DNA of 32,186 nt from an uncultured Methanosarcinales archaeon (GTDB lineage: Archaea; Halobacteriota; Methanosarcinia; Methanotrichales; Methanotrichaceae): contig CAIQHB010000041.1 of the NCBI GenBank assembly GCA_903871465.1, positions 1 to 32,186 on the forward strand, in the 5' to 3' direction. The notes beneath the pieces are model-generated. The model was not told the DNA's origin, did no database searches, and saw only the letters and a program-made list of their open reading frames with translations. Numbering within the stretch: position 1 is the first letter of the stretch; each line of letters begins with the position of its first letter. Shown piece by piece: positions 7,251-32,186 of this stretch. The translations under genes and the position numbers were made by a program.

Positions 7251-8762
7251 GTGAAACTAATTAAAGGAGCTTTATTATTCGCACTGATTTTTTTGATCAG
7301 TATTTCGTTGACTTCTGGTCTAGAACTCTCAGCCTCGACAGGAGGCAATGACGGTAGTTCTTCAACACATGTCGTTTATGGATCCACTGTAGACGACTAT
7401 GCAAACGAGCATATAGGACTTAATCCTGGAGATGGCACGCTGTCTAACTCGTTTTCCGGCACAGGCAACTTGCCGTCTAGCTTTATTGGCATCAGCGACA
7501 CGAAAGGGAACTATGCCTCTGTTTCTAGGAGCGTTTCTGGAAAACCCATAACCACGAAATGGAACTACGATTGGAATACCTATTACCCATCTTCATCAAC
7601 TGCAGGTTCTGGTGTGGGAGCGTGGCTATCGCTAACTGCAAGCAATGCTTACTCTATATCTGGTGGATCATCCTCATCTAACCGCGAGGGAGACAACGCT
7701 CAAGCGAATATCAATATCAATTCTAATTCATTAACAGATTCCTGGCTCGGCAATTATTATACATATGCTACTGCGTTTACTAATGCAGCTAACGCACATC
7801 AGACCGCAACGATAGGAATCGGAAGCAGCATCGAGCTGTATGGTAGTGCCAAGGACGGCAGCGGACTTTACAGCGTAAATACACAACTCGACGGTTTATC
7901 TGATATAATTGGAGGAAAAATAATTAAAGGCAAAGCCAGTTTTGTAGGGTTAGATGGGTCCTCCTCAGCTGGAACCATCACTCAAGCGGTGCAAAGTGAA
8001 CACGTTCATGGATTATTCACCGGTACAGCCACGGCAGATACACAAACCAAGACTAGGACCTCCAACTATGGCTCAGACTATGACATAAGTCTAGGGGCCG
8101 CTAAGTCTTCAGGTATTCCAGTTGCAAATGGGATCGTAGGGTATTACGTTACTCCTTTCATGGAGATCCAGGGGGCAGTGAACGCAGCCGAATCTGGTGA
8201 TACAATCAATATAGCACCTTGGACCTTCAAAGAGAATGTCCGTATAGACAAATCGTTGACTTTAATTGGAGCTGGTAGGAGTAGTACCATAGTTGATGGC
8301 AATAAGGCGGGTTCAGTTTTCACTATAGGCGGTACCAATCCGAATATCGGTGTGACCCTCTCCGGCTTGAATGTCCAGAACGGTAAAGCATCAAACGGTG
8401 GTGGCATTTTTAATATGGGCAAACTCACGCTAGTAGACAGCACCCTTTCCGGGAATTCAGCCACCAATTCAGGCGGAGGAATCTATAATGGAAATGGAGG
8501 CAATTTGTTTATAGGCGGAACGAGTCAGATAGTGAATAATCAGGCTATTACAGGGTATGGTGGTGGGATATCCTCCATTGGCTCAGTGACGCTTGACGGT
8601 ACTAAAGTCGTTGTAAAAAACAATAAGGCCTACCTCCCTGATACGCTTCCACCTGGGACTCTTTGGTATCAACAATATGGTGTGTATATGACATCAGGCG
8701 CACCAACCACGCTCCACGGATTCAATCCCACAACGCAAGTGACCGGTAACACCAAGATCTAA
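7251..8762 (+). CDS. Secreted right-handed beta-helix (pectin-lyase-fold) protein
   Basis: The protein starts at GTG (7251), chosen because AGGAGGG is 7-8 nt upstream and a signal peptide follows directly (LIKGALLFALIFLISISLTSG). Residues about 25-300 are Ser/Gly/Thr/Asn-rich with no recognised domain. Residues about 300-480 form a beta-helix of the kind found in archaeal surface and adhesin-like proteins: AVNAAESGDTINIAPWTF, then SLTLIGAGRSSTIVDGN, LSGLNVQNGKASNGGGIFN, LTLVDSTLSGNSATNSGGGI and a GGGISSIGSVTLDG rung. The repeated GNSA/NNxA and GGGI steps are typical of this fold. It has no C-terminal membrane anchor or sorting domain, so it is probably released or bound to the cell surface non-covalently. 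Partner and substrate are unknown. Confidence 0.75.
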   Translation: MKLIKGALLFALIFLISISLTSGLELSASTGGNDGSSSTHVVYGSTVDDYANEHIGLNPGDGTLSNSFSGTGNLPSSFIGISDTKGNYASVSRSVSGKPITTKWNYDWNTYYPSSSTAGSGVGAWLSLTASNAYSISGGSSSSNREGDNAQANININSNSLTDSWLGNYYTYATAFTNAANAHQTATIGIGSSIELYGSAKDGSGLYSVNTQLDGLSDIIGGKIIKGKASFVGLDGSSSAGTITQAVQSEHVHGLFTGTATADTQTKTRTSNYGSDYDISLGAAKSSGIPVANGIVGYYVTPFMEIQGAVNAAESGDTINIAPWTFKENVRIDKSLTLIGAGRSSTIVDGNKAGSVFTIGGTNPNIGVTLSGLNVQNGKASNGGGIFNMGKLTLVDSTLSGNSATNSGGGIYNGNGGNLFIGGTSQIVNNQAITGYGGGISSIGSVTLDGTKVVVKNNKAYLPDTLPPGTLWYQQYGVYMTSGAPTTLHGFNPTTQVTGNTKI

Positions 8763-17293: not shown

Positions 17294-20005
17294 TCAATCG
17301 CCTCCGCTGCCATGCGGGTCCTGTCGCAGGGATATCATATCCTTCAAGGCTTCATTGGATAGCTCAGTCAGCCAGGCTTCGCCCGTCCCTATAACCGATT
17401 CCGCCAGGGTTTTTTTCTGCTCTATCATCCCGTCTATCTGCTCCTCCAGAGTGCCGAGGCAAACGAATTTGTGAACAAAGACGTTCTTCTTCTGGCCGAT
17501 ACGAAAAGCTCGATCAGTAGCCTGATTTTCCACAGCCGGATTCCACCATCGATCGAAGTGAAAGACGTGGCTCGCTGCAGTTAGATTGAGGCCAAAGCCG
17601 CCCGCTTTCAAAGAGAGTATGAAGACCGGCGACTCTCCTGCCTGGAACTTCTGGATCATATCATCCCTCTGCTTCTTGGAGGTTTTGCCGTGCAAGAACA
17701 GGACTTTGGCTCCCAGCTTCTCCTGGAGATGGTGTTTAAGCATGGCCCCCATTCCGGCAAATTGGGTGAAAATTAATGCCTTATCCCCTTCTGCGACGGC
17801 CTCAGAGATCATATCCTCCAGGCGGGAGAGCTTTCCCGAACGGCCCTCCAGGGGGCTTCCATCCTGGAGGAAAAGGGCCGGATGGTTGCAGATCTGCTTC
17901 AGTTTGGTCAGAGCGGCCAGGATCTGGCCTCTGCGCTCGATGCCCTTCATCGATTCTATCCGGCCAAGCATCTCTTCTACTACGGCGGCGTAGAGCGATG
18001 CCTGCTCAGCTGTGAGCATGCAGTTCACATTCATCTCTATCTTTTGGGGCAGATCCGTTATCACGGTTTTATCGGTCTTGAGTCGTCGCAGGACAAAAGG
18101 CTGGATGATGGAGCGCAGTGCAGCGGAACTGCTTTTGTTCTTGAATTTTTCAATAGGCAGCACGAAATCCTTTCGGAAGGATTGAGCAGATCCCAGATAG
18201 CCGGGGTTGAGAAAATCCATGAGTGACCACAGATCTGAGAGCCTGTTCTCTACAGGCGTTCCAGTGAGGGCGATCCTCTGCGTTGCTTGCAGCCGTTTGA
18301 TGGACTGGGTCTGCTGGGCCGCCCGGTTCTTGATGCTTTGCGCCTCGTCCAGGATGATATGGCCCCAAAGGACGCTTGACAGGTCTTCCTCGTCCCTCTG
18401 GGCGAGAGCGTAGGTGGTGATAACTACATCCATTCTTTCCAGCTCTTGCAGGAAGAGGCTTCCCGAGAGCCGATCCTGGCCGTGATGGACCAGGACCCGA
18501 AGATGAGGCGCGAAGCGATGCAGCTCCTTTTGCCAGTTGCCGGCCACGGACATGGGGCAGATGAGAAGAGCGGGTCTGGTTCTGTCCGGTGATCTGTTAT
18601 CTTCATCCACCACATTCGCATCGTCTACTCTATCCGCATCATCGTTGTCCTCATCATCGTCCCTGCTCGCAAAAATATCTTCACTCTCATGCTCTCGTTC
18701 ATGCAGCAGGAGCAGAAAGGCTATCAGCTCCACCGTCTTTCCCAGGCCCATGTCGTCGGCGAGACACGCCCCCAGACCCAATCTGTGCAGGTACATGAGC
18801 CATGAGACGCCCCGAAGCTGGTAAGGCCGCAGGGTGCCTTTGAATTTGTGAGGTGGCAAGACAGGCTCCAGGCAGCTGCCGGGATCGGACAATTTGGAGA
18901 GAATTTGCTCGATTTGGCCCTCAGCCTGCAGGCCAAGGATGGGAAGAGGAGACTTGATCTCCGACAGCTTCTGATCAATCGGGTTAAGGCCCAGACGCAG
19001 GGCCTCGGCCAGGGTCATCTCTCGATTCCTGTTCTTCTGGAAGAACTCGATAGCTGCCTCGACTTCGCCCGGGCGGAGCTCCATCCACTCGCCTCTAATC
19101 TGGATCAGGGGTATCTTAAGGCGTGCCAGCTCTCTGAACTCGGCCTCGCTGAGGGGATTGTCGCCCAGAGAAAGCTGCCAGTCGTACTCGATCAGTGAGT
19201 TCAGCCCGAAGAAAGCAGGTCCGACTTTGCCATCTTTTTTTGGGGCGTCCAATAATCGGATCTTTACACCCAGCCGGGATCCGGGGCGCTCCCACCAGGA
19301 AGGCAGCAGTACTCCGAAACCGTTCTGCTCCAATAGAGGCGCAGACTGGCGCAGGAAGGAATAGGCCTCTTCGGTCTCCATCTCCAGGCCGGTTGGGCGT
19401 GCGCTCTCCAGACTCTTCTCTATAAGAGGAAAGACCCGCGCCGCTCTGCCAAGATCGCCCAGGAGCTGCTCCTGAGGGTTTTTCAGCCTCTTCTTCAGGA
19501 AAGTGAGGGCAGAGGACTTTGTCCGCCATACATCATCGGCAGGAACAAGCAGGCTCCGGTCATCTTTGGCCTGGAGAAAGAAGCTAAGGGACCAGGTTTT
19601 GATATCCTCTGCTGGAGATTCCAGCCTAAAGCAAGTTCGAAAGGGTACATCCACCAATTTAGGAAGCACCTGGGAGGTCCAGGATTCCAGCTCTCTGGAG
19701 AATGCGGCCATCTCCTCTGAAGAGGCCTTCAGGCCGGGCTCTTCGGATGTGAGTGCCGCCAGGAACTGCTCGGCTAGAGGAACGGCCTTTGCAGGGCGAC
19801 CCCGGCGATTGGGAAGAAGCGTGACCCCATTCAGACTGCGATGCACAAGAGAATTGACAGCGCCGTCCAGGAAGCTTGTGACCAGGCTTTGGTTCGATAG
19901 CTCCGGATCTATGGCCTTGAGGGGCTTGAGCCCAAGTCCCAGACAACTGGGCGGCATGGACAAAGAGAAGGTCCTCAGCTTTTCCAGGTCTTGCTCATCG
20001 ATCAC
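17294..20005 (-). CDS. SNF2/HepA-type DEAD/DEAH helicase, main fragment
   Basis: A superfamily 2 ATP-dependent DNA translocase. Walker A is DDMGLGKT (about residue 418), Walker B DEAQ (about 552, in HIILDEAQSIKNR), motif III ALTGTPVENRLSDLW, and the C-terminal motifs LSLKAGGFGLNL and HFDRWWNPAVENQATDRAFR. An acidic insert (EDIFASRDDDEDNDDADRVD) lies after motif Ia. The N-terminal SNF2-associated domain begins before the GTG used here, so the reading frame continues upstream without a start codon; see the frameshift entry. The operon partner is the SWIM protein 3 bp downstream. Confidence 0.9.
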   Translation of the reverse strand: MIDEQDLEKLRTFSLSMPPSCLGLGLKPLKAIDPELSNQSLVTSFLDGAVNSLVHRSLNGVTLLPNRRGRPAKAVPLAEQFLAALTSEEPGLKASSEEMAAFSRELESWTSQVLPKLVDVPFRTCFRLESPAEDIKTWSLSFFLQAKDDRSLLVPADDVWRTKSSALTFLKKRLKNPQEQLLGDLGRAARVFPLIEKSLESARPTGLEMETEEAYSFLRQSAPLLEQNGFGVLLPSWWERPGSRLGVKIRLLDAPKKDGKVGPAFFGLNSLIEYDWQLSLGDNPLSEAEFRELARLKIPLIQIRGEWMELRPGEVEAAIEFFQKNRNREMTLAEALRLGLNPIDQKLSEIKSPLPILGLQAEGQIEQILSKLSDPGSCLEPVLPPHKFKGTLRPYQLRGVSWLMYLHRLGLGACLADDMGLGKTVELIAFLLLLHEREHESEDIFASRDDDEDNDDADRVDDANVVDEDNRSPDRTRPALLICPMSVAGNWQKELHRFAPHLRVLVHHGQDRLSGSLFLQELERMDVVITTYALAQRDEEDLSSVLWGHIILDEAQSIKNRAAQQTQSIKRLQATQRIALTGTPVENRLSDLWSLMDFLNPGYLGSAQSFRKDFVLPIEKFKNKSSSAALRSIIQPFVLRRLKTDKTVITDLPQKIEMNVNCMLTAEQASLYAAVVEEMLGRIESMKGIERRGQILAALTKLKQICNHPALFLQDGSPLEGRSGKLSRLEDMISEAVAEGDKALIFTQFAGMGAMLKHHLQEKLGAKVLFLHGKTSKKQRDDMIQKFQAGESPVFILSLKAGGFGLNLTAASHVFHFDRWWNPAVENQATDRAFRIGQKKNVFVHKFVCLGTLEEQIDGMIEQKKTLAESVIGTGEAWLTELSNEALKDMISLRQDPHGSGGD

Positions 20006-22101: not shown

Positions 22102-23157
22102 GTGCAGCTCGTGATCAATACCTACGGTGCATATCTTCGCAAGAGCGGGAACTGCTTCCTGGTGAAAAGAGATGATAAGAGCTTTGAGGTTGCAGTCAAT
22201 AAAGTCAATAGTATTTTAATTACAACCGCTGCATACATCACCACAGATGCCATTAAGTTGGCTGTAGACAACAATATAGATATCGTCTTTCTCGATGCCC
22301 ACGGCGACCCCTACGGCAGGGTTTGGCATCCCAAGTTAGGTAGCACCACTCTGATCCGGAGGAGGCAACTGGAGATCTACGAGACTCTGGATGGCTTGAA
22401 TCTGGCGAAAGAGTGGGGTTTGAAGAAACTGGATAATCAGATAGAGCTTCTCGTCAGGCTGAAGAAGACAAGAGTTGAGACGCGGGATGAGCTGGATCGG
22501 TACATCGAGGATATTGAGCATTCCCGTGAGAAGATGAAGAGGCTGCGGGGCACGATCGAAGCCCGGCGGCAGGATATGCTGGGCCTGGAGGGCATGGCTG
22601 CCAGGACCTATTTCGAGGCCCTCTCCTCTATCATGCCGGAAAAGTACAGGTTCGCGGGAAGGAGCAGAAATCCGGCCAAGGACGAGTTCAATGCCTTGCT
22701 CAACTACGGATATGGCGTCCTCTACTCACTGATGGAAAAGGGATGCATAATCGCTGGCCTCGATCCCTACTTAGGCTTTTTGCATAGCGACTCCTACAAC
22801 AAGAAGTCACTGGTCTTCGATATCATAGAGATGTTCCGGATCTACGTCGATGAGACGGTGGTTTATCTTTTCTCCAGGAGGATGGTCAAGGATGAGTTCT
22901 TCGAGCCGCTGGAGCAGGGGATGGGCCTGAGCAAGGACGGGAAGGCGGCATTGATCGAGGCGCTCAACAAGACACTGGAGGAGACAATAGTCTACCGGGG
23001 CCGCAATGTGAAGACGAGGAACACCATCCAGATGGAGTGCCACAGGATAGCCAACGGGCTCATCCGGCCCGGCCAGGAGCTGCCGGACGACTTCGATCTG
23101 GATATTCTGGAGTCGGAAGAATACAAGGGAAGGCAAACGGAACCGGACGCAAAATAG
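22102..23157 (+). CDS. cas1: CRISPR integrase Cas1
   Basis: Cas1 is the integrase that inserts new spacers together with Cas2. The catalytic triad is visible: Glu163 (GLEGMAARTYF), His228 (GFLHSDSYNKKSLVFD) and Glu243 (DIIEMFRIYVDE). The N-terminal beta domain (LVINTYGAYLRKSGNCFLVKR, VDNNIDIVFLDAHGDP) is typical. Length 351 is normal. The start is GTG at 22102 with GAGG 7 nt upstream; the overlapping ATG at 22100 is in another frame. It is first in the operon cas1-cas2-cas4 with only 9 bp to cas2. Confidence 0.96.
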   Translation: MQLVINTYGAYLRKSGNCFLVKRDDKSFEVAVNKVNSILITTAAYITTDAIKLAVDNNIDIVFLDAHGDPYGRVWHPKLGSTTLIRRRQLEIYETLDGLNLAKEWGLKKLDNQIELLVRLKKTRVETRDELDRYIEDIEHSREKMKRLRGTIEARRQDMLGLEGMAARTYFEALSSIMPEKYRFAGRSRNPAKDEFNALLNYGYGVLYSLMEKGCIIAGLDPYLGFLHSDSYNKKSLVFDIIEMFRIYVDETVVYLFSRRMVKDEFFEPLEQGMGLSKDGKAALIEALNKTLEETIVYRGRNVKTRNTIQMECHRIANGLIRPGQELPDDFDLDILESEEYKGRQTEPDAK

Positions 23158-23166
23158 AGGTTGCTA

Positions 23167-23454
23167 ATGCTGGTCTGGGTGATTTACGACATATCGGAGA
23201 ATAGATTCCGCAGCCGGGTAGCGAAGATCTGCAAGAACTATGGCCTGTTCCGGGTGCAGAAGAGCGCCTTCCTGGGCGACCTGAACCGGAACGAGTCCGA
23301 TTCCCTGGCCCTGGAGTGTGAGGCGACCATTGAGGAATCCGATTCGGTCTACGTCTTTCCCATGTGCGAGGACTGTTTCGACAAGATAAAACTGATTGGG
23401 GCAGGATTTGATCGGGAAATGGTGAGCGGCATGACGATAACCAAGGTATTCTGA
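23167..23454 (+). CDS. cas2: CRISPR-associated endoribonuclease / adaptation protein Cas2
   Basis: 95 residues starting MLVWVIYDISENRFRSRVAK, the Cas2 fold start with the conserved Asp8 after the first strand. KNYGLFRVQKSAFLGDLNRN and SDSVYVFPMCEDC are typical of the family. The ATG at 23167 is chosen because GAGG lies 6 nt before it; a TTG two codons upstream is less likely. It forms the Cas1-Cas2 integration complex. The next gene, cas4, starts 7 bp downstream. Confidence 0.94.
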   Translation: MLVWVIYDISENRFRSRVAKICKNYGLFRVQKSAFLGDLNRNESDSLALECEATIEESDSVYVFPMCEDCFDKIKLIGAGFDREMVSGMTITKVF

Positions 23455-23461
23455 GGGCAAA

Positions 23462-24115
23462 ATGGAGACGGATGCAGAAATTGAAGCCTCGCACGCGCAG
23501 GCACAGGCGCGGGAGAGCGTGCTCGCGCCTGAGCAGGAGATTTTCGTAACGGTATCCGATGCCCTGGAGTATCTCTTCTGTCCCAGGTTCATCTACTTCA
23601 TGCATTGCCTGGACATCGCCCAAAGAGAAGAGCGGCGCTTCAAGGTCCAGAAGGGCAGAGAACTGCACGATAGCCGGGAGAAGGTAAACCGGGATTACGT
23701 GAGAAAGAAGCTCAACTGCGTCCGAAAAGAGATCTCAGTTTATCTTACTTCGCATAAATATCACTTCAAAGGAGAAGTCGATGAAATTCTCTTTCTGGAT
23801 GATGGAACGGCAGCGCCTCTGGATTACAAGTATGCGGAATTCAAGGACACCGTTTACAAGACGCACAAGTTTCAGGCTGCTCTTTACGGGCTGCTCATCA
23901 TGGAGCACTTCGGGGTGGATGTTAAGCGGGGCTTTGTCTGTTATACGAGGAGCAACAATCATGTGGAAGAGATAGACTTCCAGCAAAAAGATTATGAGAA
24001 GGCAAAGGAGATTGTGCGCGAGATATTGATGATAATTCAGAGGGGATACTATCCCGAAGGGACGAAGCAGAAGGTCAGGTGCGTGGACTGCACGTATAGG
24101 AATATATGCGTTTGA
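23462..24115 (+). CDS. cas4: CRISPR adaptation exonuclease Cas4
   Basis: Cas4 is a RecB-like nuclease with a 4Fe-4S cluster that trims prespacers and selects those with a PAM. The cluster cysteines are Cys40 (LFCPR) and Cys207, Cys210, Cys216 at the C-terminus (RCVDCTYRNICV). The nuclease motifs are GEVDEI and LDYKYAEF, with a QAALYGLLI (QxxxY) motif. The first 25 residues are Ala/Glu/Gln-rich and extend beyond the usual start. GAGG lies 5-8 nt upstream. It ends the adaptation operon; a 289-bp non-coding gap separates it from cas8b. Confidence 0.94.
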   Translation: METDAEIEASHAQAQARESVLAPEQEIFVTVSDALEYLFCPRFIYFMHCLDIAQREERRFKVQKGRELHDSREKVNRDYVRKKLNCVRKEISVYLTSHKYHFKGEVDEILFLDDGTAAPLDYKYAEFKDTVYKTHKFQAALYGLLIMEHFGVDVKRGFVCYTRSNNHVEEIDFQQKDYEKAKEIVREILMIIQRGYYPEGTKQKVRCVDCTYRNICV

Positions 24116-24147
24116 TTGATGAAAAATGGAACGACATGGAGAGAAAC

Positions 24148-24156
24148 AAATTTATT
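24148..24156 (+). promoter_or_regulatory. Possible TATA box of the crRNA-like RNA
   Basis: AAATTTATT lies about 30 nt before the first degenerate repeat (24182), so transcription would start at or just before that repeat. Supported only by sequence. Confidence 0.35.
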
Positions 24157-24181
24157 CTTTGCAATGAGAATACGAAAATAG

Positions 24182-24296
24182 AATCGATAGTATCTTCCCT
24201 AGTAACAAGGATTGAAACAGTGTTAAGGGTGTATTCGCTGATGTTTTCAGCGTTACCATGTTTAGATAACGCTTCCACCATAACAAGGATTGAGTT
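24182..24296 (+). ncRNA. Degenerate two-repeat mini-CRISPR: candidate CreA/CreR-like regulatory RNA
   Basis: A degenerate repeat at 24182-24218 matches the array repeat at 24 of 37 positions, including all of the last 15 (AACAAGGATTGAAAC) and TTCC at 14-17. A second at 24260-24296 matches 20 of 37, again with TTCC and AACAAGGATTGA, but has lost the final AAC. They are 78 bp apart, as in a real array, and lie in the same direction as cas genes. Between them is a 41-nt pseudo-spacer (24219-24259). Its first 16 nt pair, with one mismatch, with the cas8b promoter at 24340-24355. The first repeat keeps the exact 8-nt handle ATTGAAAC needed on a mature crRNA; the second keeps only what Cas6 processing would need. 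Known type I-B CreA and CreR RNAs have this layout. The pseudo-spacer also holds a hairpin, CGCTGA-5-TCAGCG (24236-24252). Confidence 0.75.
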
Positions 24297-24328
24297 GATT
24301 GGATTAAGGCTAGGGGTTATTCCAAGCG

Positions 24329-24355
24329 ATAAATTATTAAGTGTAAAGGGTGTAT
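24329..24355 (+). promoter_or_regulatory. cas8b promoter with overlapping target of the crRNA-like RNA
   Basis: An AT-rich box ATAAATTATTAA (24329-24340) is a likely TATA element for cas8b, predicting transcription from about 24358-24362. The target AGTGTAAAGGGTGTAT (24340-24355) directly follows it and equals pseudo-spacer nt 1-16 except position 6. The three bases before the target are TTA, which would be the PAM. Cascade bound here would cover the space between TATA box and transcription start. Confidence 0.65.
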
Positions 24356-24404
24356 CAAGTTTAATGCAAATCCAAGAAGCAGTCAATACGCATCGGTGAT
24401 TTGA

Positions 24405-26285
24405 GTGATCGAGGCCGTAAGCAGAATCGGAGATTATATGCAAAAAAATAAAGGTGAGAATGATTTACTATCTGCCTTTATCGAAAATCCAAATACCAAT
24501 GGAAAATATAAAGTTGTATTGATCGTGGTATTGAACGAGCGATATGGTGATTATTCATTTTGTCGCGTTGCGTTTGATGAGTTCAGCGATTATCCACGAT
24601 ATCTATATAAAAAAGGTCCATCAAATGGCACTAATGCGACACCTACTAGCAAGATAGCAGGTGATATTGGGAAAACATTCCAAAACAGATTCTTAAAATG
24701 GTTCCAGAACTATGAAACCTACGATATCTCAGAAGAAGAAAAAGAATCTCTCAAAAAGATGAACATGGCAATAAGAGATCAAAAAGAAACTATCTTAGCC
24801 GATCTACAGGAAAAATTTTCTCAAAAGAAATCTGATGAAAATGCCATCATAACCTTGGGGATCGAGAGAGATGGGGAGATGAGCTATCTTGGGGATCAAC
24901 AGGTTTTCAAAAATATTTTGCTCAGGAAAGGCAAAGACAAATATTATCTCAAGTCTCAGGGAAAATCGCTTGGGAAAGATTCTGCCTGCTCCGTCTGCAA
25001 AGAGGTGAAAGAAGAAGTCTATGGCTTCGCAATTCCCTGGACATTTCATACCTTTGACAAACCCGGATTTATTGCGGGTGGTTTTGAGGTCAATGAATCC
25101 TGGAAAAATACTCCCGTGTGCTTCGATTGTGCCACGCGCCTGGAAGTTGGAAAGAAGTACATCGAGGAAAATCTCGATTATGGCTTCTATGGCTTCAGAT
25201 ATCTCCTCGTTCCAAAATTGACCATGGCAGGGGACGAAAATGAGGCCCTTGAAGAGGTCCTGGACATCCTGGGCAATAAGGATGAAAAAAGAAAGATAAA
25301 AATAAATCGAGAAATTAAGAACCGAATAACCGCAGATGAGAATGAGATATTTGCGTTTGTCAAGGATCAGAAAGATTTCTTCAGCAACAGCCTGATATTT
25401 TATAAAAAGGAGCAATCGTCTTATAGAATTCTTCTCTTAATCGAAGGAATTCTTCCGTCAAGACTGAAGGCTCTCTTTAATGCCAAAGAAAAGGTCGATG
25501 AGAGATTTAATATATACAATGATTCGATTCTTAGCGAAACACAGAGGGAAAAGAATCACTTGGAGTTCAATTTTGGAGTCCTAAGACGATTCTTCCCGTC
25601 CGAGTCTAAAAATAGAACATTCGACAAAATATTCTTGGAAATGGTTGACAAGATCTTTGTTGGAGATCAAATCAGTTACCATTTGTTGATAGATTTTATA
25701 ATGAGCAAAGTGAGAGAGGCGTTCGTCAAGGATTATTCTACTAATATCACTACTTTGAACGGCTTCTTGCTATTGCACTATATTGAGAAGCTTAATCTTT
25801 TCAAAGCAAATAAAGCGGAGATGAAAGAGATGAATGAACGAGGCAGTGAGGTTCTTCGCATCGAAGAGCTTGAGAGTCTCCCATTAGAGCAACGCATTGA
25901 GAGGTTCTTCGAAGCAAACAAGGCGTTCTTCAATAGCGATGGCAAGAAGGCAACATTCCTGGAAGGAGTATTGACTCAGAAGCTCCTTAACATACAATGG
26001 ATGGACAAAAAGGCAACTCCATTCCGCACCAAGCTCCATGGCTTGAAGATGAATGAACCATTGATCAAGAGGCTCCTTCCGGAAATTCAGAACAAGCTGG
26101 AGGAATACGGGAAGAATTATTACCGAGATTTGGAATCTATCATTGCACATTATTTTGTTTTAGCTGGGGTTAATTGGAAAGAAGTAGATGATGAGCTAAG
26201 CTTCTACTTTGTTTTGGGAATGGACATGCATAAGCTGTTTAAGAATACAAAAGAGATGGATGAGCAAATTGGTGAGGGGGCATAA
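24405..26285 (+). CDS. cas8b: Type I-B Cascade large subunit Cas8b (TM1802-like)
   Basis: Cas8b recognises the PAM and completes the Cascade surveillance complex. The start MIEAVSRIGDYM and the following LLSAFIENPNTNGKYKVVL match the Cas8b/TM1802 family. A zinc-binding pair is present: Cys195-x2-Cys198 (ACSVCKE) and Cys239-x2-Cys242 (VCFDCA). The later region GFYGFRYLLVPKLT is typical. 626 residues is normal. The start is GTG at 24405; no strong ribosome site is visible, and a later ATG (residue 12) is the alternative. It is the first gene of the effector operon cas8b-cas7-cas5-cas3, whose promoter is the probable target of the crRNA-like RNA just upstream. Confidence 0.9.
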   Translation: MIEAVSRIGDYMQKNKGENDLLSAFIENPNTNGKYKVVLIVVLNERYGDYSFCRVAFDEFSDYPRYLYKKGPSNGTNATPTSKIAGDIGKTFQNRFLKWFQNYETYDISEEEKESLKKMNMAIRDQKETILADLQEKFSQKKSDENAIITLGIERDGEMSYLGDQQVFKNILLRKGKDKYYLKSQGKSLGKDSACSVCKEVKEEVYGFAIPWTFHTFDKPGFIAGGFEVNESWKNTPVCFDCATRLEVGKKYIEENLDYGFYGFRYLLVPKLTMAGDENEALEEVLDILGNKDEKRKIKINREIKNRITADENEIFAFVKDQKDFFSNSLIFYKKEQSSYRILLLIEGILPSRLKALFNAKEKVDERFNIYNDSILSETQREKNHLEFNFGVLRRFFPSESKNRTFDKIFLEMVDKIFVGDQISYHLLIDFIMSKVREAFVKDYSTNITTLNGFLLLHYIEKLNLFKANKAEMKEMNERGSEVLRIEELESLPLEQRIERFFEANKAFFNSDGKKATFLEGVLTQKLLNIQWMDKKATPFRTKLHGLKMNEPLIKRLLPEIQNKLEEYGKNYYRDLESIIAHYFVLAGVNWKEVDDELSFYFVLGMDMHKLFKNTKEMDEQIGEGA

Positions 26286-26287
26286 AA

Positions 26288-27205
26288 ATGAGCGAGGAAG
26301 TTAAGAACAGATCAGAGATTCTTTTTATCTACGACATAAGAGACGGAAATCCTAACGGAGATCCAATGGACGAGAACAAGCCTAGGATCGATGAAGAGAC
26401 GGGAATCAACCTTGTAACTGATGTCAGGTTGAAGAGGACTATTCGGGACTATCTCCACAATTTCAAGGATCAGGAGATCTTCGTTAGAGAGGTCACTTAT
26501 GATGCCGAGGGACATGTTCAGGATGGAAAGATGAGAGCAGGTAACTTCGCCAATGATGCCACTAGAATCTTAAATGAGTGCATAGATATTCGTCTCTTCG
26601 GAGGAGTAATACCTTTAAAAGAGGACTCGATAATCTATACCGGCCCAGTTCAGTTCAAGATGGGCCGTTCGCTCCATCGCGTCACCATGATGCATATCAA
26701 AGGCACTGGAGCCTTTGCCTCGAAGGAGGGTTCAAAGCAGGCAACCTTTAGAGAAGAGGACTTCCTGGCATATTCGCTTATCTCCTTTTATGGCATCATA
26801 AACGAGAATGCTGCCAAACATACTCATCTTACCGAAGAGGATTTGAATCTCTTGATGGAAGGTATCTGGAATGGGACAAAGAGCTTGATTTCGAGATCTA
26901 AAGCAGGACAGGTTCCAAGGTTGCTCCTGAAGGTGAATTACAGCAAAGCTAACTATCACATAGGAGACCTGGATAAAATGATGAAGCTGAAAACCGAGAT
27001 TCCTCATGAGAACATTCGTGACACTGCAGATTACCAGCTTGACGTCTCCGAGCTGGTCAAGAAACTTGCTGCTGAAAAGGGCTCAATCAAGAATATCGAG
27101 ATTTGCGTGGACGACAGAATTCGGTTCAGCAAAGATGGGGCCGATTTCCCAATTGAGGGATTGGCAGAGGCTTCGGGCATCGCCATAAAGCCAATTGCTT
27201 TTTGA
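26288..27205 (+). CDS. cas7: Type I-B Cascade backbone Cas7 (Csh2 family)
   Basis: Cas7 subunits form the helical backbone that holds the crRNA. Family marks: IFIYDIRDGNPNGDPMDENKPR-type start (here LFIYDIRDGNPNGDP), DVRLKRTIRDYL, DIRLFGGVIP, GPVQFKMGRSLH and HLTEEDLNLLMEGIWNGT. 305 residues is normal. The start is 2 bp after the cas8b stop with GGGG 6-9 nt before the ATG. As a known property of the fold, its thumb flips out every sixth crRNA base, relevant to the position-6 mismatch described for the crRNA-like RNA. Confidence 0.95.
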   Translation: MSEEVKNRSEILFIYDIRDGNPNGDPMDENKPRIDEETGINLVTDVRLKRTIRDYLHNFKDQEIFVREVTYDAEGHVQDGKMRAGNFANDATRILNECIDIRLFGGVIPLKEDSIIYTGPVQFKMGRSLHRVTMMHIKGTGAFASKEGSKQATFREEDFLAYSLISFYGIINENAAKHTHLTEEDLNLLMEGIWNGTKSLISRSKAGQVPRLLLKVNYSKANYHIGDLDKMMKLKTEIPHENIRDTADYQLDVSELVKKLAAEKGSIKNIEICVDDRIRFSKDGADFPIEGLAEASGIAIKPIAF

Positions 27206-27212
27206 GGTCCAG

Positions 27213-27920
27213 ATGCAGGAGAGAGTAATAGTATTCGATGTGTGGGGGGACTACGCTCACTTCAGGAAGAATTACTCTACCAGCTCTCCACTCACCTATT
27301 CTTTCCCACCTCGAACGGCTCTCTCTGGGCTGATCGGGGCCATCGTCGGTCTAGATAAATCGGAGTATTTCAGGCACTTCTTTAAAGTTGATGCCAAAAT
27401 CGGATGCAAGATCCTCCAACCTGTTAAAAAAGTTAGGATCGGAGAGAACCTGATCGACACCAAGAGCGCAGTTAAGATGCATCTGATCAAGAACCGAACC
27501 CAGATCAGATTCGAGTTCGTCAAAGATCCGATGTACAGGATTTACTTCACTCACTCCGATGAGCAATTGTATAAAAAACTCAAAGACCTGCTCACCAGCC
27601 ATCAATCTGTGTACACGCCGTGTCTCGGACTGAGCCAGCTCATCTGCAACTTTCAGTTTGTAGGTGAGTTTGGGCTGAAGAGTTCCGGAGATGAAGTCCA
27701 GGAAATAGATAGTGTCGTGCCGGGCAAATGCCTTCTGGAGCCTCCTGATTTCGAGGAGGGAAACGAATACTTCTCTGAGGTTATGCCTGGCGAGATGGGA
27801 GAGGAGCGGGTGGTAACAGACTACAGCGAGATTCTTTTTGAGAGAAATGGAGAGAAAATCAAAGCGAAGTCCAAAGAGCTTTGGGAGGTCGGTAATGGCG
27901 AGCGAATCGTATTCCTTTAA
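27213..27920 (+). CDS. cas5: Type I-B Cascade subunit Cas5 (Cas5h-like)
   Basis: Cas5 caps the 5' handle of the crRNA. The protein begins MQERVIVFDVWGDYAHFRKN, then SSPLTYSFPPRTALSGLIGA, the conserved Cas5 start (F-x-G-x-x-A-x-F and PPRTxLxGLIGA). The start is ATG at 27213, with GAGG 5 nt before it; an upstream TTG in the same frame would overlap cas7 and lacks a ribosome site. It overlaps the cas3 start by 26 nt. About 235 residues is normal. Confidence 0.93.
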   Translation: MQERVIVFDVWGDYAHFRKNYSTSSPLTYSFPPRTALSGLIGAIVGLDKSEYFRHFFKVDAKIGCKILQPVKKVRIGENLIDTKSAVKMHLIKNRTQIRFEFVKDPMYRIYFTHSDEQLYKKLKDLLTSHQSVYTPCLGLSQLICNFQFVGEFGLKSSGDEVQEIDSVVPGKCLLEPPDFEEGNEYFSEVMPGEMGEERVVTDYSEILFERNGEKIKAKSKELWEVGNGERIVFL

Positions 27921-30387
27921 GCTTAAGTCTCACCCTGATTTGCAGGATGGTCGAATCCGACCCTTGCTGGATCACTTGAGATGTGTAGGGCATTTAAGCA
28001 GGAAAACTGTTACAGATAAATCTCTAAACATAGATGACAAGGATCTTCTGACAGACGCTGCTTATCTGATAGGTGTTACGCATGACCTGGGAAAAGCTAC
28101 GAAATTTTTCCAGGAGTACATTGTTGAGAAAGATGAGACGAAAAAGAAGTCCCTCAAAGCCAAGGATAACACACATCATGGCCTGCTCTCGGCTTTCTTT
28201 ACTTACGCGGTAATCAAAGAATACCTGAGCCAATCAAAGATAAAAGGAGGATTATCGGATTACATTCCCATCTTATCTTTCCTAGTTGTGAAGAGGCATC
28301 ATGGAAACCTTATGAATGCCATGGACGAGTTAAGCGAGGTGAATGCGGAGAATGAGAAAATATTGAAGGTAGCGGAAGAGCAGATCGCGTCAATAGATCG
28401 AACTGAGATTAATGAAATCCTGACATTGCTTTTTCATGAAGGGAAGATTGATTTAAAAATCGATATTAATGATATTATTAATTACATCTTGAAGGATGCA
28501 TGCAATGAGATTGGTGGAAAGGAAAGGCGCCTGATAAGGCATCTCAATCGAAAGATAGATCTTTACCCGTATTTCATAACTCAGTTTCTCTATTCTGCCC
28601 TTCTGGATGCAGATAAGACTGACGCGGGGCTAGGTGACAAATATCTGGATTCAGATCGTTTAGACCTTTCAGCAGACCTGGTGGATCAATATAGAGACCG
28701 GAAAGGATTCACTTCAGACAGAAATAATATTAATAGTCTCAGGAATCAGATCTATGAAGATGCAATGGCAGGAATTAGGGATTGGAACCTCGATAATAGA
28801 ATCATCTCATTGAATGTCCCAACTGGCACCGGCAAAACTTTGACTTCTCTTTCCTTTGCCCTAAAGCTCAGAGATCGATTGAAGAATGAGAGAAATTTCA
28901 CGCCCAGGATAATCTACGCTCTGCCTTTCCTGAGTATAATAGATCAAAATTACGATGTCTTTAAAGATGTTATCTCTCAAGAGGGAGAACTTAAAGATTC
29001 CAGGCTTCTTCTCAAGCACCATCATCTAGCGGATGTAAACTACAAAATAGAAGATAAAGATGCTGAATTTTATAAGGCCGACGAAAGCCTCTTGCTCCTG
29101 GAAGGCTGGAACGCAGAGATAATTGTAACCACATTTTGGCAGTATTTCTACACGCTTTTCTCAAACAAAAATAAATTGCTTCGCAAGTTCAACAAGCTGG
29201 CCAACTCCATAATTATTCTGGACGAAGTGCAAGCAGTCCCTCACCAGTACTGGCAGTTGATTCACGACGCGACGAAGATGCTTTGCGAGAAGTTCAATAG
29301 CTATGTTGTCTTCGTTACGGCAACTGAGCCGCTCATATTCGATGAAGCGACAGGGGAGATAAAGGAGATCGTGCAGAAGAAAGAGGAATACTTCCGGGGC
29401 CTGGACAGAATTGAACTGATTCCCAGAATCGAGACGGCTTTGACTCTGGAGGAATTCAAGGTCTTGCTGGAAGAGGATCTAACCGACAATTCTAAAAAAG
29501 ATTTCCTGATCGTTCTCAACACCATTAGCTCAGCTAACGACGTTTACAAGTTCATTAAGGGCCTGGAGTTAGAGAATACTGAGAATTTTTACTTATCCAC
29601 AAATGTGATTCCGAAGGAGAGGTTGGAGCGGATAAAAAAGATCAAGGGACCTTCGGAAAATAGGGTGCCAAATGAGTCTCAAGAAAAAAGAAAAGTCATA
29701 GTGAGCACTCAATTGATTGAGGCCGGTGTAGATATCGATGCAGACAGAGTCTATCGAGACTTCGCTCCCATGGATTCCATAAACCAAGTGGCAGGTAGAT
29801 GCAACAGGAACTCGGCCAAAGCAGATAAAGGCACGGTATCAATATTTATTTTAAAAGATGATCGAAAAGAATTTTATAAATACATCTACGATCCATTCTT
29901 AATGAGCAAGACCCTTGACATCCTAAAACCGATTAAGGGTTCAATTCGAGAATCAGCTATATTGGAGTTGAACAACAAATACTTCAAAGCCGTGAAGAGG
30001 GGCATGGGTGATGAGAAATCAAAGGAAAATCTGGCCTGTCTGTCACAGTTGTCCTTCCAGGATCTGAGCAAGAAGTTCAAGTTGATCGAGGAGGATTATC
30101 CCAAGGTAAATGTTTTTGTAGAGCTAGATAAAACAGCTGCAGAAGTCTGGGCGAAGTATCAAGATTTGCGAATGGTGAAGGACATCAAAGAAAGGATAAG
30201 GAAAAAACTGGAGATAAGGAAAGATTTCAGCGAGTATGTGATCTCCGCACCAGAAAAGTACGCTCATAACCTGGTCACTGAAGACTCCGAAATGGGCTAT
30301 ATTTCAAGAGATGAGCTGCCCAACTACTACGATCTGGAGACAGGCTTCATGCGGGCCGGAGCCGGAGAGGGCTCCATGATCATCTGA
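27895..30387 (+). CDS. cas3: CRISPR helicase-nuclease Cas3
   Basis: Cas3 is the nuclease-helicase that degrades DNA bound by Cascade. The HD nuclease is N-terminal: His63-Asp64 (GVTHDLGKATKFFQEY), then THHGLLSAFF and KRHHGNLM. Helicase motifs: TGTGKT (310-315), DEVQ (443-446), FVTATEP, STQLIEAGVDID and MDSINQVAGRCNR. The start is ATG at 27895 with GGGAGG 6-7 nt before it; longer in-frame starts run deep into cas5. 830 residues. Followed after 15 bp by a truncated cas6 copy. Confidence 0.94.
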   Translation: MASESYSFKLKSHPDLQDGRIRPLLDHLRCVGHLSRKTVTDKSLNIDDKDLLTDAAYLIGVTHDLGKATKFFQEYIVEKDETKKKSLKAKDNTHHGLLSAFFTYAVIKEYLSQSKIKGGLSDYIPILSFLVVKRHHGNLMNAMDELSEVNAENEKILKVAEEQIASIDRTEINEILTLLFHEGKIDLKIDINDIINYILKDACNEIGGKERRLIRHLNRKIDLYPYFITQFLYSALLDADKTDAGLGDKYLDSDRLDLSADLVDQYRDRKGFTSDRNNINSLRNQIYEDAMAGIRDWNLDNRIISLNVPTGTGKTLTSLSFALKLRDRLKNERNFTPRIIYALPFLSIIDQNYDVFKDVISQEGELKDSRLLLKHHHLADVNYKIEDKDAEFYKADESLLLLEGWNAEIIVTTFWQYFYTLFSNKNKLLRKFNKLANSIIILDEVQAVPHQYWQLIHDATKMLCEKFNSYVVFVTATEPLIFDEATGEIKEIVQKKEEYFRGLDRIELIPRIETALTLEEFKVLLEEDLTDNSKKDFLIVLNTISSANDVYKFIKGLELENTENFYLSTNVIPKERLERIKKIKGPSENRVPNESQEKRKVIVSTQLIEAGVDIDADRVYRDFAPMDSINQVAGRCNRNSAKADKGTVSIFILKDDRKEFYKYIYDPFLMSKTLDILKPIKGSIRESAILELNNKYFKAVKRGMGDEKSKENLACLSQLSFQDLSKKFKLIEEDYPKVNVFVELDKTAAEVWAKYQDLRMVKDIKERIRKKLEIRKDFSEYVISAPEKYAHNLVTEDSEMGYISRDELPNYYDLETGFMRAGAGEGSMII

Positions 30388-30402: not shown

Positions 30403-30530
30403 ATGAATCTCAAAATCCTCCGTCTCACCCTCCACGCGGGCGCGTCCCTGCGCGGGGATGGGAACGCGGCCAAGCTGCTGGCTTCCTTGCCCCAGATTCA
30501 ACGAACATGCCCTCCTGCACCAGCATGTGA
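30403..30530 (+). pseudogene. cas6: Truncated, frameshifted 5' copy of cas6
   Basis: Starting at an ATG 15 bp after cas3, this stretch matches the first 124 bp of the intact cas6 at 31140-31263. The protein begins MNLKILRLTLHAGA against MILKILRLTLHSDA, and after a net 2-base loss near 30481-30495 continues RFNEHALLHQHV against SFNEYALLHQHV. It also has a 6-base insertion (GN). The match stops abruptly at CACCAGCATGTGA. Roughly four of five bases agree, so it is an older or diverged copy, not a recent duplication. It marks the original cas6 position next to cas3. Confidence 0.85.
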
Positions 30531-30614
30531 TTGGTCACAAAGGCCAAAAAAGCCATAAAGACAGACATCGCAACAGCAGGTATCAAATATCAATACAGCT
30601 TAAGAGCTATCACA

Positions 30615-30851
30615 ATGAGGACACTAAATTACAAAGTTCTGCTCCGAAAAGAGGACGATGGGACTTATACGGTGATCGTGCCTTCGCTACCAGGCTGCCT
30701 GACTTTCGGGAGGACCGTAGAAGAGGCATTAGAAATGGCAAAAGAAGCCATTGAAGGCTTCATAGCTTGTATGGTTGCGCGTGGCGAAGAGGTTCCCATC
30801 GAAAACTGTGATTCAATGGTATGCACTATTGCAGTTGAAGCAAATGCCTGA
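30615..30851 (+). CDS. hicB: HicB-family antitoxin
   Basis: 78 residues: LNYKVLLRKEDDGTYTVIVP, LPGCLTFGRTVEEALEMAKE and AIEGFIACMVARGEEVP are the typical partial RNase H-like HicB fold. The ATG at 30615 is chosen because the family begins near it; the longer frame from 30531 adds a basic, unrelated extension. It neutralises the HicA RNA-cleaving toxin encoded 36 bp downstream. Antitoxin-first order is one of the two known arrangements. A separate DNA-binding domain is not evident. Confidence 0.85.
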   Translation: MRTLNYKVLLRKEDDGTYTVIVPSLPGCLTFGRTVEEALEMAKEAIEGFIACMVARGEEVPIENCDSMVCTIAVEANA

Positions 30852-30887
30852 GCCTTAGATGACAACGAACGCATAACCTTGATTGAC

Positions 30888-31112
30888 ATGGCTAAACTAC
30901 CCTGCATACCACCTGAAAAGCTCGCAAGAATACTTGAAAAATGTGGATTTGAGCTGGAAAGGATCTGTGGTAGTCATCACTTTTACCATAATCCCAAAAC
31001 CAAAAAATCTACTGTGATTCCTTTTCACGGAAATGATGTTCCAAAAGGATTATTGAATGAAATCTTAAAAGAGGCAGGTATCAGTCGTGATGAGTTCTTC
31101 GATAATCTCTAA
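30888..31112 (+). CDS. hicA: HicA-family mRNA interferase toxin
   Basis: 74 residues, MAKLPCIPPEKLARILEKCG then GSHHFYHNPKTKKSTVIPFH, the double-stranded RNA-binding-like fold of HicA with catalytic His in GSHHF. It ends PKGLLNEILKEAGISRDEF. An upstream TTG (30879) is in frame, but the ATG fits the family. The toxin cleaves mRNA when HicB is lost. It sits inside the cas locus between a dead and an intact cas6, where it could make loss of the locus costly; this is inference. Confidence 0.88.
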   Translation: MAKLPCIPPEKLARILEKCGFELERICGSHHFYHNPKTKKSTVIPFHGNDVPKGLLNEILKEAGISRDEFFDNL

Positions 31113-31139
31113 AGCCGCTTATGTTGGTGCTGAATACCT

Positions 31140-31796
31140 ATGATCCTCAAAATCCTCCGTCTCACCCTGCACTCGGACGCGCCCATGCACGGGGACGCGG
31201 CCAAGCTGCGGGGCTTCTTTGCCACCAGCTTCAACGAATATGCCCTCCTGCACCAGCATGTGACAGACAAGCTGATCTACCGGTATCCTCTCATCCAGTA
31301 CAAAATGCTGGACGGCAGCCCTCTGGTCCTCGGCATCAATGAGGGTGCAGAGATCCTGAAAGAGATTTATGATAAATTCGATGAGATAAAATTAGGGGAT
31401 AGCAACTACTCCATCATGGAGCGCGGCGTGACTGTGAAGAGCGAGGAGTTCGGCTGCACAGAGGAGATCCAGAGCTACAGGTTTGCCATGCCGTGGCTGG
31501 CCCTGAGCCAAGAGAACTACGCCCGGTATATGGGTGCATCTTTGGGGGATCGAAAGGATCTATTGCGAAGAATCCTGGTGGGCAACCTTCTTTCCGCATC
31601 CAAAGGTCTGGGGTATGTGGCCAAGGAGCACATCCGGCTGGAGCTGGGAAGGATGCAGGACGAGATTTGCCTGCTGAAGGGGACCAAGGTGACGGGTTTT
31701 CGAGGGGAGTTCATGACATGCTTTGCCATTCCGGACCATATGGGCCTCGGGAAGTCCGTCTCCAGAGGTTATGGAGCGGTTACAAGATTAAAATAG
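31140..31796 (+). CDS. cas6: CRISPR RNA processing endonuclease Cas6
   Basis: Cas6 cuts the precursor CRISPR RNA within each repeat, leaving the 8-nt handle ATTGAAAC. The protein is a double RAMP: N-terminal LKILRLTLHSDAPMHGDAAK, middle YRYPLIQYKMLDGSPLVLG, and the C-terminal glycine-rich loop GLGKSVSRGYGAVTRLK, diagnostic for Cas6. 218 residues. It has no strong ribosome site and starts 27 bp after hicA. It lies directly before the array leader, unlike most I-B loci where cas6 is next to cas8. Confidence 0.9.
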   Translation: MILKILRLTLHSDAPMHGDAAKLRGFFATSFNEYALLHQHVTDKLIYRYPLIQYKMLDGSPLVLGINEGAEILKEIYDKFDEIKLGDSNYSIMERGVTVKSEEFGCTEEIQSYRFAMPWLALSQENYARYMGASLGDRKDLLRRILVGNLLSASKGLGYVAKEHIRLELGRMQDEICLLKGTKVTGFRGEFMTCFAIPDHMGLGKSVSRGYGAVTRLK

Positions 31797-31955: not shown

Positions 31956-32186
31956 GTCCGAGGGCAAGTTCCAAGAAAACAAGGATTGAAACTTGATTCC
32001 TTTCCAAGTATATCAACAGAATAATAAGCTGGCGGGTCCGAGGGCAAGTTCCAAGAAAACAAGGATTGAAACCCTATTAAATTATATCTCATACATGCTA
32101 AAAGTACAGTCCGAGGGCAAGTTCCAAGAAAACAAGGATTGAAACAATATTGGACCACAAGAATCTTCGATTGATAATTCAGTCCG
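31956..32186 (+). CRISPR. CRISPR array, type I-B, continuing beyond the window
   Basis: Three identical 37-bp repeats (31956-31992, 32036-32072, 32109-32145) begin GTCCGAGGGCAAGTTCC and end AAGGATTGAAAC; a fourth starts at 32182 with GTCCG at the window edge. Spacers are 43, 36 and 36 nt. The leader lies on the left, so the first spacer is the most recent. The last 8 nt ATTGAAAC are the expected 5' handle of mature crRNAs. No match between a spacer and this window was noticed by eye. Confidence 0.97.

Follow-up and report, generated by a model that had tools for sequence, protein, structure and literature searches.

Two diverged copies of a CRISPR repeat lie outside any array, in the gap between cas4 and cas8b of an archaeal type I-B locus. 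What does such a mini-CRISPR do there? The window analyzed here, i.e., the whole stretch of 32,186 nucleotides from an uncultured Methanosarcinales archaeon, carries cas1, cas2, cas4, this gap of 289 bp, cas8b, cas7, cas5, cas3, cas6b and the start of an array, in that order. We conclude, with a probability of roughly 0.84, that the mini-CRISPR is a CreR-type gene (for a cas-regulating RNA), whose guide would repress the promoter of cas8b-cas7-cas5-cas3; both the RNA and the repression are predicted from sequence. The original prediction had proposed a crRNA-like regulatory RNA of the CreA or CreR kind. That is still the best reading, and a 15/16 match of the guide to the cas8b promoter region narrows it to CreR.

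Architecture of the cas locus

The named relatives of the window's Cas8b belong to Methanothrix MAGs and are 71-82% identical to it across most of the protein. Its gene, the first of the putatively repressed operon, has a GTG start with GGTGA upstream. Both cas1 and cas2 lie upstream of it, alongside cas4. The repeat of the array is GTCCGAGGGCAAGTTCCAAGAAAACAAGGATTGAAAC.

22102-23157, cas1
23161-23454, cas2
23462-24115, + strand, cas4, upstream neighbor of the mini-CRISPR
24405-26285, + strand, cas8b of the TM1802/Csh1 type (Pfam PF09484, E-value 3e-184; TIGR02556, TIGR02591)
26288-27205, + strand, cas7 (Csh2)
27195-27920, + strand, cas5b
27838-30387, + strand, cas3
31140-31796, + strand, cas6b, predicted guide processor (PF17262, PF17955)
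31956-32145, + strand, beginning of the actual CRISPR array, with three identical 37-bp repeats followed by the contig end

Two further features were noted around these genes. A hicB-hicA toxin-antitoxin pair (30615-30851 and 30888-31112; Pfam PF15919 and PF07927), within 30403-31263, is flanked by a duplicated 5' fragment of cas6 (30403-30530, in 83-95% identical blocks) and by the intact cas6b (31140), an arrangement that looks as if the pair had been inserted with target duplication. Additionally, a SNF2-family helicase with a DUF3670 domain adjoins the cas locus (17294-20005, - strand).

The mini-CRISPR

Re-reading of the sequence bore out what had been described at first: two degenerate repeats at a spacing of 78 bp (24182-24218 and 24260-24296), both with TTCC and AACAAGGATTGA at the positions that these occupy in the array repeat, and a handle that is whole in the first copy (ATTGAAAC) and reduced to ATTGAGTT in the second.

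24145-24157, + strand, putative TATA-like promoter element of the mini-CRISPR, AACAAATTTATTC, judged by eye
24182-24218, + strand, degenerate repeat 1 (psiR1), 24/37 identical to the array repeat, TTCC and AACAAGGATTGAAAC exact
24211-24218, + strand, predicted 5' handle, the last 8 nt of psiR1
24211-24288, + strand, predicted mature guide RNA of 78 nt, from the 8-nt handle rule (PMC8501985)
24219-24259, + strand, pseudo-spacer (psiS), 41 bp
24219-24234, + strand, seed and matching part of psiS, AGTGTTAAGGGTGTAT
24260-24296, + strand, degenerate repeat 2 (psiR2), with the decayed handle

Both copies share the motif TTCC-N5-AACAAGGATTGA. Five sites of TTCCNNNNNAACAAGGATTGA were counted in the window, i.e., the three array repeats and the two degenerate ones, against 0 expected, and across the genome (3.13 Mb) no further exact copy of the motif exists, only one extra site with 2 mismatches. 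Since the motif is confined to the array and the gap repeats, the mini-CRISPR is confirmed. The identity of psiR1 is the best among all non-array sites, while psiR2 (20/37) is unremarkable by plain identity and distinctive only through its 16 conserved bases. With 24/37 and 20/37, the pair is no ordinary CRISPR array, the repeats of which are near-identical. The pseudo-spacer is comparable in length to the genuine array spacers (43 and 36 bp), and its part beyond the seed contains the hairpin CGCTGA-TGTTT-TCAGCG. An Rfam search at gathering level returned zero matches in the window.

A guide matching the cas8b promoter region

The seed of psiS has a counterpart on the same strand, 121 bp downstream of the guide and 65 bp ahead of the GTG start of cas8b, immediately 3' of a TATA-like sequence.

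24330-24339, + strand, TATA-like box of the putative cas8b promoter, TAAATTATTA, judged by eye
24337-24339, + strand, TTA at the PAM position of the target
24340-24355, + strand, protospacer-like target, AGTGTAAAGGGTGTAT, 15/16 to the guide with the sole mismatch at position 6

Type I Cascade leaves position 6 unpaired, and in the CreA of a haloarchaeal type I-B system positions 6 and 12 are unpaired and freely mutable (PMC8501985). Matches were scored here over the first 17 nt of the guide with these two positions omitted, i.e., over 15 positions. The pair in the window scores 14/15, a value reached in the gap by 0 of 2000 shuffled guides, and the next best gap site scores 9/15. Across the 3.13 Mb of the genome, AGTGTNAAGGGTGTAT occurs at exactly two sites, namely the guide and the target ahead of cas8b. 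Beyond nucleotide 16 the similarity falls to chance, as would be expected of a guide meant to bind without triggering cleavage. Given this near-perfect match to the start region of cas8b, the immune complex very probably lowers its own production. The window combines two traits of a CreR gene, namely degenerate repeats outside the array that keep the processing and handle bases, and a guide with partial complementarity to the promoter of the cas operon it belongs to (at 24340, the promoter being a putative one).

A coding duplication as the origin of guide and target is excluded, because the only long + strand ORF (97 aa, 24106-24399) reads the two in different frames and has neither a family nor a convincing relative in 237 genomes of the class. 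The idea that this ORF encodes a real protein was rejected: it matched neither a Pfam nor an NCBIfam family, and the 237 genomes gave only itself and one marginal match elsewhere (E-value 7e-4). A much shorter ORF of 11 codons (MQIQEAVNTHR, 24364-24399, + strand) begins near the predicted start of the cas8b transcript and terminates within the cas8b ribosome-binding site; it is possibly a leader peptide, or a product of chance.

Related loci at the same gap

Mini-CRISPRs were searched in about 40 cas loci of the class, with array edges and single-repeat noise set aside, and none appeared beyond those of the window and of four further loci (L002, L003, L012 and L128). The exact mini-CRISPR of the window was found in one genome. 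In most relatives the element is absent: cas4 abuts cas8b or, in the closest one (G004, cas8b 84% identical), a short promoter gap is all that is left between them. Three of the four loci belong to Methanotrichaceae, and their gaps are occupied as follows.

L002 (G001), 7356-7465, - strand, mini-CRISPR
L002, 7659-7748, + strand, tRNA-like gene
L002, 7768-7845, second, more degenerate tRNA-like element, downstream of the first
L003 (G021), 7398-7506, - strand, mini-CRISPR
L003, 7662-7749, + strand, tRNA-like gene
L012 (G042), 887-992, - strand, mini-CRISPR
L012, 1180-1268, + strand, tRNA-like gene

These three mini-CRISPRs lie on the strand opposite to that of the window's and have different guides. 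Each gap has a single high-scoring site (13, 14 and 12 of 15 for L002, L003 and L012, respectively; next best 9), located directly upstream of the tRNA-like gene with TTA before it. Guide positions 5 and 10 differ between L012 and L003, and the L012 target has the identical changes; guide and target have changed together, in part, among the relatives.

The fourth locus, L128 (G115), comes from another family of the class. Its mini-CRISPR carries the guide ATGTAAGAAATATGTGT (region 7456-8068) and has two targets, both after TTTA. The one at 7679 matches 15/15, position 6 excepted, and precedes an N-terminal fragment of cas8b (7704-8036; over 80 aa it is 50% identical to the intact Cas8b), and the one at 8034 matches 12/15 and precedes the intact cas8b. 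Judged by these matches, L128 is an independent example, in the same cas8b family, of a guide apparently aimed at the cas8b promoter, with the caveat that the intact gene has the weaker match. The ORF between the two targets was considered as a membrane toxin and rejected, as tblastn identified it as the cas8b fragment. The two leader regions of L128 have a duplication-like appearance.

TTA stands at the PAM position in 6/6 guide-target pairs found, i.e., in the window, L002, L003, L012 and twice in L128. The CreR logic draws support from the further pairs at this gap: their guides differ from the window's, and the one high-scoring site again falls in a promoter region and follows TTA. Concerning independent evidence of the PAM, no protospacer was found for three spacers in IMG/VR or for three arrays in a phage collection, and 133 spacers compared with the cas loci of relatives gave no cross-genome match except a duplicate of the same contig.

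In the cas8b tree, the window genome (G000, CreR) groups with G004 (no element) and with G001 and G021 (tRNA-like modules) in one supported clade, and G042 (tRNA-like module) comes next with lower support. Repeated loss, gain or exchange must have taken place at the cas4-cas8b site.

Comparison with known systems and alternative explanations

CreR has been reported in types I-B, I-E and V-A (Liu et al., 2023, Cell Host Microbe, cited in PMC12737573; also PMC13131331), and the window element therefore joins a known kind. As far as these accounts describe CreR, the likeness lies in a crRNA-like RNA (predicted here) from ectopic degenerate repeats, in partial complementarity to the cognate cas promoter and, the 11-codon ORF aside, in the lack of a toxin gene. 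The window case differs in its host system (Methanothrix I-B with a TM1802-type cas8b), in its site between cas4 and cas8b, in a complementarity of about 16 nt and in TTA versus the haloarchaeal PAM TTC. CrePA (Shu et al., 2025), in the form in which PMC12737573 cites it, resembles the window in that Cascade with a crRNA-like RNA represses a neighboring promoter, which we infer here, but the window gap has no toxin protein gene.

The two-repeat CreTA of H. hubeiense (PMC8501985, PMC9458426) is close in anatomy. There too, two divergent degenerate repeats flank a pseudo-spacer, positions 1-5 and 7-11 pair with the promoter while position 6 is unpaired (PMC8501985), and psiR1 retains the handle whereas that of psiR2 has decayed (PMC9458426). 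However, psiR1 is overall the more diverged of the two repeats in the haloarchaeal set (PMC9458426) and the better conserved of the two in the window, no CreT toxin gene was found in the window and the targeted promoter is that of cas8b. These points bear on a first alternative, namely that the guide is a CreA antitoxin: the repressed transcript would carry a toxic RNA (e.g., the 11-codon ORF at 24364-24399), to be freed when Cascade is lost. The identical two-repeat anatomy of CreTA modules (PMC8501985) speaks for it, as do the three relatives whose mini-CRISPRs at the same gap aim at a tRNA-like gene and the position of the short ORF, the sole toxin candidate, near the predicted transcript start. 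Yet a CreTA module has its creT gene under the targeted promoter, and in the window only the 11-codon ORF is found there, without a strong ribosome-binding site. No separate gene lies in the 65 bp between target and cas8b (start to start), and the window showed neither a tRNA-like gene nor a family match for the long ORF. We consider the antitoxin explanation unlikely.

The strong divergence of the repeats could also mean that they are what an old CRISPR array has left behind, decaying and without function. To test repeat conservation, the window's array repeat was taken as reference for eight ectopic repeats from four loci. Positions 1-13 match at 23-29%, which is chance, whereas positions 14-17 are kept at 94-100% and positions 23-29 at 96-100%; the handle (30-37) is kept at 94% in repeat 1 versus 59% in repeat 2. 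Decay is thus limited to positions 1-13, positions 18-22 and, in repeat 2, the handle. What has been lost is the 5' third of the array repeat; the bases on which Cas6 processing and Cas5 handle binding should depend have been kept. A handle kept in repeat 1, with the cleavage region kept in both, is the pattern that guide processing and loading would preserve. The original prediction that positions 14-17 and 23-37 are more conserved than the rest holds in these eight repeats, which represent few loci (four), and the pattern supports its claim that the functional bases were kept rather than randomly decayed. As the guide also fits the adjacent promoter far above chance, a mere remnant is very improbable. 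An accidental self-targeting spacer, captured from the host's own cas locus, would account for a spacer-sized insert that matches host DNA with TTA at the PAM position, but it should match at full length rather than only to nucleotide 16 and would not sit between two degenerate repeats outside any array, so that it can practically be dismissed.

Proposed mechanism

Under the CreR reading, the guide RNA would be transcribed from its own TATA-like promoter at about 24145, and Cas6b would cut both repeats to give an RNA of about 78 nt (24211-24288). Loaded into Cascade, this RNA would direct it to the DNA directly downstream of the cas8b TATA box, where the bound complex would block transcription of cas8b-cas7-cas5-cas3; binding without cutting is predicted because the guide-target match is only partial. 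Cascade would thereby limit its own level. In the published CreR model, as PMC12737573 and PMC13131331 present it, ordinary crRNAs and anti-CRISPR proteins relieve the repression, and by analogy their titration of Cascade may ease it here. This kind of control is already known elsewhere and is here traced in a Methanothrix I-B system. The guide, the target and the PAM candidate make a sequence-level case for Cascade autoregulation in methanogens, a group other than the haloarchaea covered by the two CreTA papers (PMC8501985, PMC9458426), and the related loci supply further natural pairs of guide and target for a single gap, some of which co-change between species.

tRNA-like genes in the relatives

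The less expected result is the tRNA-like CreT candidates of L002, L003 and L012, which may form a new class; no tRNA-like CreT came up in a search of the literature. The Rfam tRNA model gives the three genes 56-58 bits (cut-off 29), and they are present in only 3/50 genomes of the family. Since CreA-like guides match their promoters, they are candidate CreT toxins, possibly of a tRNA type and repressed by CRISPR. Judging from the related loci, autoregulation modules and addiction modules may take each other's place at a single site. We tentatively propose, as something possible rather than probable, that the cas4-cas8b gap is a site where Cascade-guided modules replace each other (CreR; none; CreA-like guide with tRNA-like gene), the tRNA possibly being an identity-altered (mistranslating or decoy) toxin.

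Specifically, the three genes are 58-71% identical to the genuine tRNA-Leu of the family versus 50-59% to tRNA-Ser(GCT), while the discriminator position 73 is G versus A in the genuine leucine tRNAs. A serine-type identity was dropped, as the alignment is closer to tRNA-Leu in spite of G73. Their anticodons are UAA, UAA and UAU. A tRNA with a UAU anticodon is unusual in archaea, where AUA is normally read by a modified CAU anticodon (cf. PMC8501985). In L003, a second, more degenerate tRNA-like element is perhaps present downstream. Finally, the guide seed of L002 and L003 lies within an inverted repeat (AAATGTAG...CTACATTT) that includes the handle end and is imperfect in L012; it could reflect folding of the guide RNA or a trace of its origin.
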